A program made the translations under genes and the position numbers. From Paracoccus sp. (in: a-proteobacteria) (lineage in GTDB: Bacteria > Pseudomonadota > Alphaproteobacteria > Rhodobacterales > Rhodobacteraceae): 64,000 bases of DNA. The stretch lies in the NCBI RefSeq assembly GCF_030604785.1, contig NZ_JAUVVF010000005.1, forward strand, positions 62,001 through 126,000. Direction: 5' to 3'. Shown one piece after another: positions 16,424-40,383 of this stretch. The first letter of the stretch is position 1. Every line of letters begins with the position of its first letter. Below the pieces are notes generated by a model. The model was given only the letters and a program-made list of their open reading frames with translations. It had not been told where the DNA came from and searched no databases.

Positions 16424-17914
16424 ATGCAACCTTTCCTGGCCCATCCCTTCGATTCGGACCGCCTGCACGAGGAATGCGGCATCTTCGGCGCCATCGGCGT
16501 GGCGGATGCGGCGAATTTCGTCGCACTCGGCCTGCATGCGCTTCAGCATCGCGGGCAAGAGGCCGGGGGCATCGTCGCCCACGACCCCGAACACGGGTTC
16601 AACAGCGCCCACCGCTTCGGCTATGTGCGCGACAACTTCACCAAGCCCGACCTGATGGCGACCCTGCCCGGTTCGCTGGCGATCGGCCATGTGCGCTATT
16701 CGACGGCCGGAACCAAGGCCAATACCGCGATCCGCGACGTGCAGCCCTTCTTCGGCGAATTCCACATGGGCGGCTGCGCCATCGCCCATAACGGCAACAT
16801 CACCAATGCCGCCGCCCTGCGCCGCGAGCTGATCGAGCGCGGCTCGATCTTCCAGTCCAGCTCGGACAGCGAATGCATCATCCACCTGATGGCCCGCTCG
16901 ATCCAGCGCAACATCCCCGAGCGGATGAAGGACGCCCTGCGCCGGATCGAGGGCGCCTTCAGCGTCATCGCCATGACCCGCACCAAGCTGATCGGCGTGC
17001 GCGACCCCCTGGGCGTACGCCCGCTGGTCCTGGGCAAGGTCGGCGAAGAGGGGTTCGTCCTCGCCTCGGAAACCTGCGCGCTGGACATCATCGGCGCCGA
17101 GTTCCTGCGCGAGATCGAGCCGGGCGAGATGGTCGTCATCTCGAAAGGCCAGATCGAAAGCTCGCGCCCCTTCGGCCCGTCCACCGGGCGGTTCTGCATC
17201 TTCGAGCATGTCTATTTCTCGCGCCCCGATTCCATCATCGGCGGGCGGTCGGTCTATGAAACGCGCCGCCAGATCGGCGTGGAACTGGCCCGCGAGGCGC
17301 CGGTCGAGGCGGATCTCGTCTGCCCCGTCCCCGACAGCGGCACCCCGGCCGCCATCGGCTTCGCGCAGGAATCGGGCATCCCCTACGGGATGGGGATCAT
17401 CCGCAACCAGTATATGGGCCGGACCTTCATCGAGCCGACGGACCAGATCCGCAACATGGGCGTGCGGCTGAAGCTGAACGTGAACCGCGCGCTGATCGCG
17501 GGCAAGCGCGTCGTGCTGGTCGATGACAGCGTGGTGCGCGGCACGACCAGCCGCAAGATCAAGGACATGATCCTGGATGCCGGCGCGGCCGAGGTGCATT
17601 TCCGCATCGCCTCGCCCCCCACAGCCTGGCCGTGCTTCTACGGCGTCGATACGCCCGACCGCGAGAAGTTGCTGGCCGCGAACATGTCCACCGAAGAGAT
17701 GCGCGACTGGATCGGCGTGGACAGCCTGTCCTTCGTCTCGCTGGACGGGCTTTACCGCGCCGTGGGCGAGGCCGAGGGCCGCAATGCGAAATGCCCGCAA
17801 TATTGCGATGCCTGCTTCTCGGGCGATTACCCGGTCGCGCCCTTCGACCAGCTCGAGCGCGGGTTCCGCATGAAGGCCGGGTCCGAGACGGCCGGGAAGA
17901 TGGCGGCCGAGTGA
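16424..17914 (+). CDS. purF: Amidophosphoribosyltransferase
   Basis: LHEECGIFGAIG N-terminal Cys nucleophile region, VVLVDDSVVRGTTSRKI PRPP motif. Confidence 0.97.
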   Translation: MQPFLAHPFDSDRLHEECGIFGAIGVADAANFVALGLHALQHRGQEAGGIVAHDPEHGFNSAHRFGYVRDNFTKPDLMATLPGSLAIGHVRYSTAGTKANTAIRDVQPFFGEFHMGGCAIAHNGNITNAAALRRELIERGSIFQSSSDSECIIHLMARSIQRNIPERMKDALRRIEGAFSVIAMTRTKLIGVRDPLGVRPLVLGKVGEEGFVLASETCALDIIGAEFLREIEPGEMVVISKGQIESSRPFGPSTGRFCIFEHVYFSRPDSIIGGRSVYETRRQIGVELAREAPVEADLVCPVPDSGTPAAIGFAQESGIPYGMGIIRNQYMGRTFIEPTDQIRNMGVRLKLNVNRALIAGKRVVLVDDSVVRGTTSRKIKDMILDAGAAEVHFRIASPPTAWPCFYGVDTPDREKLLAANMSTEEMRDWIGVDSLSFVSLDGLYRAVGEAEGRNAKCPQYCDACFSGDYPVAPFDQLERGFRMKAGSETAGKMAAE

Positions 17915-17930
17915 ATGCGTCCCGCGAGGG

Positions 17931-17983
17931 CCGGGGGCGCTTCGCCCCCCGGACCCCCCGAGGATATTTGCACCAAGGCAAAG
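17931..17983 (+). repeat. Dispersed 3'UTR element, copy 1: GC hairpin + ACCCCCCGAGGATATTTGCACCAAGGCAAAG tail
   Basis: Hairpin GGGGGCG-CTT-CGCCCCC, then a tail shared nearly identically with 34631-34659 (reverse) and 40355-40383. Confidence 0.9.
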
Positions 17984-17984
17984 A

Positions 17985-18419
17985 TCAGGGGACGATGCGT
18001 TCCAGCGCGTCGTAGGTGGCCGGGCCGTGGCGCCAGATCGCTTGGCACAGGCTGTCGGGCTTATGGCGAAGCGCGGCCAGTTCGTCGCGCGTGACCCAGC
18101 GGGCGCGGTTCACGATGCCCTCGGGATCCACGAGGGTGAGCGTTGGCGGACCGGTCAGCGTGGCGCGGAAATGGATCTCGACCTGATGGAAGCCGCGTTC
18201 GGGATCGTGGAATTCGTTGATCAAGAAAGGCTGGCCCACCGCGATGGTCAGGCCGGTTTCCTCGGCCACTTCGCGGGCCAGGTTCTCGGGCAGCGAGGCA
18301 TGGGGATCGACCCCGCCCCCCGGCAGGCACCAGAGGTCCGAGGCCTGGCCGGGATAGGCGTTCACCACCAGAACCCGCCCCGCATCGAGGATCGCGGCGC
18401 GGACCGCGAGCCGGATCAT
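17985..18419 (-). CDS. NUDIX hydrolase
   Basis: Nudix box GGGVDPHASLPENLAREVAEETGL. Confidence 0.92.
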   Translation of the reverse strand: MIRLAVRAAILDAGRVLVVNAYPGQASDLWCLPGGGVDPHASLPENLAREVAEETGLTIAVGQPFLINEFHDPERGFHQVEIHFRATLTGPPTLTLVDPEGIVNRARWVTRDELAALRHKPDSLCQAIWRHGPATYDALERIVP

Positions 18420-34630: not shown

Positions 34631-34700
34631 TTTGCCTTGGTGCAAATATCCTCGGGGGTGAATTGCCCGGCACGGGCAAGAGGGGGCGCGAGAGCCCCCT
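34631..34700 (-). repeat. Dispersed 3'UTR element, copy 2 (reverse strand): two hairpins + ACCCCCGAGGATATTTGCACCAAGGCAAA
   Basis: Hairpins AGGGGGC-GCGAGA-GCCCCCT and TTGCCC-GGCAC-GGGCAA, then the conserved tail at 34631-34659. Confidence 0.9.
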
Positions 34701-34720: not shown

Positions 34721-35305
34721 TCAGCCCATCTTGCGCAGATAGGTCCAGGTCGGCACGCGGGCATTGCGCGCGACCGACCAGCTTTCGGCATCGCCCAGAT
34801 AGACGAAGCCGCAATTGGTCAGCACCCGGGCCGAGCCGGGATTGTCCTGAAACGCCTCGGCGAAAAGCGTGCGCGAGCCATGCGGGTTGGCCGCGACCAG
34901 CCCCGCGACGGCCTCGGTCGCGAAGCCCGTATTCCAGAAGCCGGCACCGACCCAGAAGCCCAGCTCGGACTGGTCGCCCTCCATCCGGGTCAGCGACACG
35001 ACGCCCAACAGCTCGGCCAGCTGGCTGTGCGAGCCGTCGATGGCCCAGACATCCTCGCGCCGGTCGGCGGCCAAGGCGCGGGCCACGAAACCCTCGGCTG
35101 CGCCGGGGGGCAGCGGATGGGGGATGGCGCGCGTGCCCTCGGCCACGCGGCGATCGGCGGTGTAATGGGCGATCAGCCCGGCATCGGACACGCGCAGCGG
35201 CCGCAGCAGCAGCCGCTCGGTCTCGATCGTGATCTGGTCGGTGGCGCCAAGCGCCAGCGCGTTGAGGTCGTCCAAAGCTGTCCCCTCCCTCAAGGGTGCA
35301 GACAT
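34721..35305 (-). CDS. GNAT family N-acetyltransferase
   Basis: ITIETERLLLRPLRVSDAGLIAHYTAD...FWNTGFATEAVAGLVAA...NPGSARVLTNCGFVYLGD (RimJ-type). Confidence 0.92.
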   Translation of the reverse strand: MSAPLREGTALDDLNALALGATDQITIETERLLLRPLRVSDAGLIAHYTADRRVAEGTRAIPHPLPPGAAEGFVARALAADRREDVWAIDGSHSQLAELLGVVSLTRMEGDQSELGFWVGAGFWNTGFATEAVAGLVAANPHGSRTLFAEAFQDNPGSARVLTNCGFVYLGDAESWSVARNARVPTWTYLRKMG

Positions 35306-39318: not shown

Positions 39319-40317
39319 ATGCGTCTTCTGACCACCGTCGCCGTGATCGGCGCCACCGCGATCCCGGCCTTTGCCGAAGAGGTGAACGTCTATTCGCACC
39401 GGCAGCCGGAACTGATCCAGCCGCTGTTCGACGCCTTCACCGCCGAGACCGGCATCACGGTCAATTCGTCCTTTGTCGACAAGGGCATGGTCGAGCGCCT
39501 TCAGGCCGAGGGCTCGCGTTCGCCCGCCGACCTGGTCCTGACCGTCGATGTCGCGCGCCTGGGCGAGGTCAAGGATGCCGGCGTCCTGCAGCCCATGGAT
39601 GCCGAGGCGCTGTCGGTCATTCCCGCGAACCTGCGCGACGACGAGAACATGTGGTTTGCCCTGACCACCCGCGCCCGCATCATCTATGCCCACAAGGACC
39701 GCGTGGCCGAGGACGAAGTCACCACCTACGAGGATCTGGCCGACCCGAAATGGCAGGGCCGCATCTGCACCCGCGTCTTCACGCATGATTACAACGTCGC
39801 GCTGACCGCCGCCCATCTGGCCCATCATGGCGAGGAGGCCACTCTGGCCTGGCTGGAAGGCATCAAGGCGAACCTGGCGCGCAAGCCCGAAGGTGGCGAC
39901 CGCGACCAGGTCAAGGCTATCTGGGCGGGCGAATGCGACATCGCCATCGGCAACACCTATTACATGGGCGGCATGCTGGCCGATGACGAGCAGAAGGCCT
40001 GGGCCGAATCGGTCCGCATCGAATTCCCGACCTTCGAGGATGGCGGCACGCATCTGAACGTCTCGGGCGTCGCCATGACCGCCGCCGCGCCGAACCGCGA
40101 AAACGCGCTGAAGCTGGTCGAATTCCTGGTCGGTGACGAGGCGCAGCGCATCTATGCCGAGACGAACCACGAATTCCCGGTGAAGGAAGGCGTAGCCCTG
40201 TCCGAGCTGGTCGCCAGCTGGGGCGAGTTCGAGGCCGACGATCTGGCCCTCTCGGAGATCTCGGACCTGCGCCCGCGCGCGCTTGACCTGATCGAGCAGG
40301 TCAACTTCGACGGCTGA
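39319..40317 (+). CDS. Fe(3+) ABC transporter substrate-binding protein
   Basis: Signal peptide; EEVNVYSHRQPELIQPLFDAFTAETGITVNSSFVDKGMVERL...GDIAIGNTYYMGGM-like AfuA/FbpA features. Confidence 0.92.
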   Translation: MRLLTTVAVIGATAIPAFAEEVNVYSHRQPELIQPLFDAFTAETGITVNSSFVDKGMVERLQAEGSRSPADLVLTVDVARLGEVKDAGVLQPMDAEALSVIPANLRDDENMWFALTTRARIIYAHKDRVAEDEVTTYEDLADPKWQGRICTRVFTHDYNVALTAAHLAHHGEEATLAWLEGIKANLARKPEGGDRDQVKAIWAGECDIAIGNTYYMGGMLADDEQKAWAESVRIEFPTFEDGGTHLNVSGVAMTAAAPNRENALKLVEFLVGDEAQRIYAETNHEFPVKEGVALSELVASWGEFEADDLALSEISDLRPRALDLIEQVNFDG

Positions 40318-40336: not shown

Positions 40337-40383
40337 GTGGGGGCCAGCCCCCACACCCCCGGGATATTTGGACCAAGGCAAAG
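40337..40383 (+). repeat. Dispersed 3'UTR element, copy 3: hairpin + ACCCCCGGGATATTTGGACCAAGGCAAAG
   Basis: GTGGGGG-CCAG-CCCCCAC hairpin, then the conserved tail, 20 nt after the SBP stop. Confidence 0.9.

Follow-up and report, generated by a model that had tools for sequence, protein, structure and literature searches.

Triplex repeats have been known in bacteria since 2000, though we know of no function for them. RNA 3′-end triple helices (MALAT1, PAN ENE) and triplex pseudoknots (telomerase RNA, SAM-II) are formed of U.A-U triples with an A-rich strand, and U.A-U triple helices protect 3′ ends from exonucleases in some eukaryotic and viral RNAs. The PIT/BoxC/TM_ECO sequences, found in E. 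coli among others, are repeats of the intrastrand-triplex type (Hoyne & Maher; Holder et al., 2015, PMC4666352). TM_ECO has the block order Y-R-R (CCCTCNCCC N3-6 GGGNGAGGG N3 GGGNGAGGG) and is found more often upstream of ORFs, with unbiased orientation (PMC4666352). Earlier work, as cited in PMC4666352, reported neither promoter nor terminator activity for PIT/TM_ECO repeats.

The element analysed here resembles PIT/TM_ECO in being dispersed, intergenic, G/C-rich, and present in many copies with varying loops and inverted pairs, and it likewise consists of three equal-length blocks obeying triplex base rules. However, its blocks run R-Y-Y on the given strand and R-R-Y on the other, which departs from the TM_ECO consensus. 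Furthermore, it has a loop–spacer lock, a lower stem or second hairpin, and a conserved core and tail, and it lies strictly at gene ends instead of upstream of ORFs without orientation bias. It is akin in principle to the E. coli PIT/TM_ECO triplex repeats but is not a member of them. A literature search of incomplete coverage found no description of the element, with the motif strings returning unrelated papers only, and term searches did not find the motif in a paper on R. sphaeroides PNPase 3′ ends (PMC7866481) and a Paracoccus sRNA paper (PMC5107571).

In the window, the whole 64,000-nucleotide stretch of DNA that was analysed, a search for the tail pattern GGATATTTGNACCAAGGCAAA with at most three mismatches returned exactly three matches (17962+, 34651-, 40362+), compared with none in 100 shuffles. 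The sequence-only reading had described near-identical tails at three intergenic places, each just 3′ of the upstream gene's stop codon and in the sense of that gene; the sequences read as described, and the placement holds for all three copies. An Rfam search of the window gave no family match at gathering score for the element and matched only two tRNAs. The parts of the copies are as follows.

17912-17914, + strand: stop codon of purF, the upstream gene of copy 1
17916-17927, + strand: copy 1, 5′ extension TGCGTCCCGCGA, common to one subfamily of copies
17931-17937, + strand: copy 1, lower stem CC and G-arm GGGGG
17938-17944, + strand: copy 1, loop segment CGCTTCG
17945-17952, + strand: copy 1, 3′ arm CCCCCC and lower stem GG
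17953-17959, + strand: copy 1, hinge A (one base) and third strand CCCCCC, the mirror of the 3′ arm
17960-17961, + strand: copy 1, spacer GA, its last base complementary to the loop-centre T
17962-17969, + strand: copy 1, core GGATATTT, conserved family-wide, with GAGTATTT in other genera
17970-17983, + strand: copy 1, tail GCACCAAGGCAAAG, genome-specific
34721-34723, - strand: stop codon of the GNAT acetyltransferase gene, the upstream gene of copy 2
34631-34699, - strand: copy 2, whole element
34699-34695, 34694-34687, and 34686-34682, - strand: copy 2, G-arm, loop CTCTCGCG, and 3′ arm
34679-34663, - strand: copy 2, second hairpin TTGCCC/GGGCAA
34659, 34658-34654, and 34653-34652, - strand: copy 2, hinge A, third strand CCCCC, and spacer GA
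34651-34644 and 34643-34631, - strand: copy 2, core and tail
40315-40317: stop codon of the solute-binding-protein gene, the upstream gene of copy 3
40337-40383, + strand: copy 3, whole element
40337-40338 and 40353-40354, + strand: copy 3, lower stem GT/AC
40339-40343, 40344-40347, and 40348-40352, + strand: copy 3, G-arm, loop CCAG, and 3′ arm
40355, 40356-40360, and 40361, + strand: copy 3, hinge A, third strand CCCCC, and spacer G
40362-40369 and 40370-40383, + strand: copy 3, core and tail

The strand order in the aligned copies is a G-arm of 4-7 bases, a loop, a C-arm, a linker, a second C-run, a spacer of 1-4 bases, the core, and the tail. The linker takes one of two forms, either a lower stem of 2-3 bp (CC:GG, GT:AC, CT:AG, GC:GC, or GCA:TGC), whose 5′ side precedes the G-arm, and then a single hinge base, or a second hairpin likewise followed by a hinge base. 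The first and second C-runs had the same length in 203 of 236 elements. In hairpin 1 of 138 tail-anchored copies, the pairs comprised 1057 Watson–Crick, one G·T, and no A·C, and second hairpins had 581 Watson–Crick, no G·T, and one A·C, compared with 355 Watson–Crick, 11 G·T, and four A·C in canonical U-tract terminators at the same loci. The earlier claim that the stems vary yet still pair through compensatory changes held in the window copies and across these 138 copies; the equality of the two C-runs, the loop–spacer pairing, and the triple covariation had not been part of that reading. A long-insert variant between the C-runs occurs at L147, L210, L211, and L219 and at the G043 loci L252, L297, and L302. 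The insert in L210, GTCGTCCATTGGGCTTGAACCAATGGCGCACCAATGGACGAC, contains one CCATTGG and two CCAATGG, giving one arm two possible partners.

The relation of the second C-run to the hairpin was analysed in 397 genomes, one per genus, by selecting hairpins whose G-arm contains an internal A and that precede the core, with the hairpin-to-core interval left free. Among the distinct sequences with asymmetric arms, the third strand was in parallel (mirror) order in 74, for example GGGGGAGG..CCTCCCCC..CCCCCTCC, and antiparallel in one, with 12 ties; the sole antiparallel exception has a two-A arm, which is itself compatible with mirror order. Had the second C-run been a rival partner for the G-arm, its order would have been that of the C-arm; because mirror order was seen, a duplex of the G-arm with the second C-run is ruled out. 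When G positions alone were used for the alignment, the base of the third strand facing internal A:T pairs was T in 69 cases, A in 20, G in two, and C in one, and facing G:C pairs it was C in 471 of 473 cases (T 1, A 1). A separate search of A-topped arms gave the same covariation, and in pooled loci the next third-strand base was T for 16 of 17 stems topped by A:T, compared with 11 of 219 other stems.

The loop centre formed a Watson–Crick pair with the last spacer base in 61 of 66 distinct types, compared with a mean of 34.6 and a maximum of 48 in 5000 shuffles, which overstate independence because the copies are related by descent, even though many genera and loop types contribute. A second loop–spacer pair, in antiparallel order, was present in 43 of 52 types (shuffle maximum 38), and a third was not significant in the shuffle test. 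The rule was first found in Paracoccus and then proved true of 44/44 elements from other genera, those with GAGTATTT cores included (22/22 by type). Among the few non-standard loop–spacer pairs, G·T was commoner than A·C on the strand given. Covariation within the aligned sequences establishes the hairpin, the second hairpin, the length match, the parallel/mirror triple covariation, and the loop–spacer complementarity. The base rules match those of an intramolecular triple helix that would be locked by the loop contact, with covariation revealing pairing and matching, not chemistry.

In the source genome (Paracoccus-like, 3.14 Mb, 83 contigs), the GGATATTTGNACCAAGGCAAA pattern occurred at 50 sites with at most three mismatches and its reversed control pattern at none, and the pattern C4 + 0-4 bases + GATATTT gave approximately 60 sites after removal of overlaps. 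The expectation of well over 100 copies per genome was thus too high for this genome, with its approximately 60 elements. Its sister species G043 yielded 133 raw pattern matches, some of them overlapping. The exact tail was almost confined to Paracoccus species; at up to two mismatches, 24 of the genus's 61 genomes have it. By comparison with controls of 0-3 matches, CCCC-N0-4-GGATATTT was strongly enriched in approximately half of 120 Rhodobacteraceae genera tested, with up to about 150 raw matches. CCCC-N0-4-GAGTATTT, of which the source genome has none, was enriched in many genera, several of them without the GGATATTT form (raw matches: 99 in G070, 189 in G065, and 184 in G170). Beyond Rhodobacteraceae, 250 genomes from the class gave counts at background only, and the element is restricted to this family. 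Genus G444 had 130 raw matches to a GAGGG-arm pattern, far above any other of the 397 genera, as the recent expansion of one subtype.

Genes in the stretches around the copies were called approximately, with an iterated codon model and a simple ORF scorer. In 138 clear cases, which leave out 44 elements (22 within called ORFs, 22 in long gaps), the element lay between convergent genes in 63, in tandem gaps in the same sense in 51 and antisense in 23, and between divergent genes in one, compared with 107 convergent, 247 tandem, and 60 divergent background gaps (p ~1e-8). A stop codon preceded the element in 137 of the 138. The core mostly lay 20-100 bases past the upstream stop, and the stop codon of the facing gene, where present, often adjoined the tail; the tail of copy 1 ends one base short of the stop codon of the facing NUDIX gene (17985-17987). 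At L001 (1473-1521) and L007 (1464-1521), two elements lie tail to tail between convergent genes, their tails forming a long inverted repeat. A replication-polarity signal was rejected on the even division of sites between the strands of the one-contig genome G039.

In the position behind purF, the element is present, with varying loops and tails, in most relatives whose PurF identity is at least 93%, and more distant Paracoccus species have a canonical U-tract terminator there. The element takes the place of a canonical terminator behind at least this one gene among related species. In the sister species G043, approximately ten source-genome sites with long flanking homology keep the element, including those of purF and of copy 2 (locus L295, where loop and tail differ). 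The tail is different at all of these sites, and most of them have a changed loop, arms, or second hairpin, with the pairing rules intact. The tail had been described as conserved, which is correct within one genome but not between species, since at the corresponding sites the sister species has CACAGAAGATG or GACCAAAGCAG; the dominant tails are particular to each genome. The position after stop codons and the survival of elements at orthologous loci despite changed content are both observed. The simplest account, we infer, is that whole cassettes are replaced via recombination between copies, from which genome-specific tails would follow. Directly 3′ of the purF stop in L157 is TAAGCCGGGGATATTCCGGCAAAG, an apparent deletion remnant of the element that has lost the hairpin, and at L058, L093, L101, and L122 a canonical terminator (AAAAAGGTCC..GGACCTTTTT) upstream of the core is fused, immediately on the 5′ side, to a reduced element.

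Considering these results, we propose that the window copies belong to one Rhodobacteraceae-wide family of gene-end elements built for three-stranded folding, the best reading of which, held with middling confidence, is a gene-end boundary or terminator. The order would be lower stem, G-arm (R), loop, C-arm (Y), hinge (or second hairpin and hinge), mirror C-run, spacer, core (GGATATTT/GAGTATTT), and tail. The mirror C-run may be laid in register as a third strand along the G:C hairpin, and the spacer would pair next with the loop centre, locking the triple helix. RNA polymerase may then be halted or released at the element, with the AT-rich core as a putative weak stretch for release. That the element serves to end or insulate transcription where genes finish, in many cases between a convergent pair, is a proposition for which we judge the chances about equal either way, and the element may represent a new way of ending or insulating genes. 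More tentatively, this bacterial family may have its own class of terminator or gene boundary, a loop-locked triple helix of RNA or template-strand DNA that is interchangeable with U-tract terminators and kept by cassette replacement. A triplex-like element with strict family-wide rules, located at gene ends and replacing a canonical terminator, makes triplex function directly testable, and in Rhodobacteraceae, which include model phototrophs, denitrifiers, and marine bacteria, it would be a type of signal that terminator predictors would miss.

Whether the fold is selected on DNA or RNA is approached through the base rules. Selection on RNA alone should tolerate G·U, so the near-absence of G·T in the stems counts against it. 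The purine-motif rule provides for A.AT and T.AT triples (PMC4666352), and A or T, rather than G or C, facing A:T suggests this base rule on the complementary DNA strand. A fold selected on DNA, likeliest a purine-motif triplex (G.GC, A.AT, T.AT) of the complementary, usually template, strand, or else a constraint on both strands, is somewhat probable. In the other direction, the G·T lean of the odd loop–spacer pairs leans towards the strand given (RNA or coding DNA), and the same-sense bias in tandem gaps (51 vs 23) suggests that the transcript matters. On balance, a DNA or two-strand constraint is slightly favoured by these sequence patterns over RNA. Of the earlier suggestion of an mRNA 3′-end module, the gene 3′-end location, the compensatory stems, and the conserved core stand, and action in the mRNA is less supported, as G.T is nearly absent and 23 of 74 tandem copies are antisense; a DNA purine-motif triplex would account for the third-strand rule at least as well.

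The alternative that fares best, possible though on the doubtful side, is an RNA element at the mRNA 3′ end, in which a hairpin, a pyrimidine-motif triplex (C+.G-C, U.A-U), and a loop–spacer pseudoknot would bring about intrinsic-like termination at GGAUAUUU and/or protection from exonucleases. The position behind stop codons, the substitution for a canonical terminator, the same-sense preference in tandem gaps, and the G.U-like lean of the odd loop–spacer pairs are consistent with it, as are the parallel orientation, shared with the pyrimidine motif, and the rank of U.A-U as commonest among the triples at A:T pairs. Like MALAT1, PAN ENE, telomerase RNA, and SAM-II, the element is predicted to have, close to an RNA 3′ end, a hairpin together with a major-groove triple helix, and a pseudoknot-like loop contact; unlike them, it is bacterial and C.G-C rich with occasional A:T levels, and its RNA nature is only putative. 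In the RNA, AUAUUU would fit the RNase E pattern RN|WUU as a candidate site. RNA can form pyrimidine-motif intrastrand triplexes, according to work cited in PMC4666352. However, at least five adjacent C+.G-C triples require protonation at near-neutral pH, the A opposite A:T pairs in 20 of 92 cases is unpredicted by the pyrimidine motif, and G.T is nearly nil among ~1640 stem pairs compared with 11 of 375 in canonical terminators; the antisense tandem copies also speak against it.

It is unlikely that the element is a selfish dispersed repeat, REP-like or other, that is tolerated only at gene ends, with fold and tail marking the target of a mobilising enzyme and the terminator-like location a by-product. 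Tens of dispersed copies, a dominant tail specific to the genome, and whole-cassette rewriting at orthologous sites would fit such a repeat, and the element shares with REP/BIME and RAYT systems dispersed intergenic palindromes near gene ends and inverted pairs, here tail to tail. However, the RAYT-type Y1 transposase (PF01797) has no match in the source genome and, present in one of eight element-rich genomes, is absent from the other seven; on this a RAYT-mobilised REP element was rejected, and with it the RAYT form of the REP-like mobile repeat suggested earlier. By reading, no GTAG or CGTC tag was found at the palindrome foot in the aligned copies. Furthermore, the element differs from REP/BIME in its mirror third strand and in sites that are kept between species, and its second hairpins are diverse yet perfectly paired, unlike fresh copies of a single master. 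Ordinary GC-hairpin intrinsic terminators of shared ancestry, with the second C-run and tail structurally idle, are very improbable and were already disfavoured, because, although GC-rich hairpins 3′ of stops, a core containing T, and the interchange with a canonical terminator behind purF recall intrinsic (Rho-independent) terminators, no U-tract or T-run adjoins the stem (GGATATTT starts at least seven bases past the hairpin-1 stem in the three window copies and contains no T-run longer than three), a terminator scan of the window does not list copy 1 (17933), core and tail reach ~30 bases beyond the hairpin, the mirror triple covariation and loop–spacer pairing are left unexplained, and antisense copies also occur.

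Returning to the proposed gene-end element, in tandem gaps at L014 (~1500-1550), L006, L023, and L033 a purine-rich tail lies at the position expected for the Shine–Dalgarno sequence of the next gene, reading AAAGGAG in L014.
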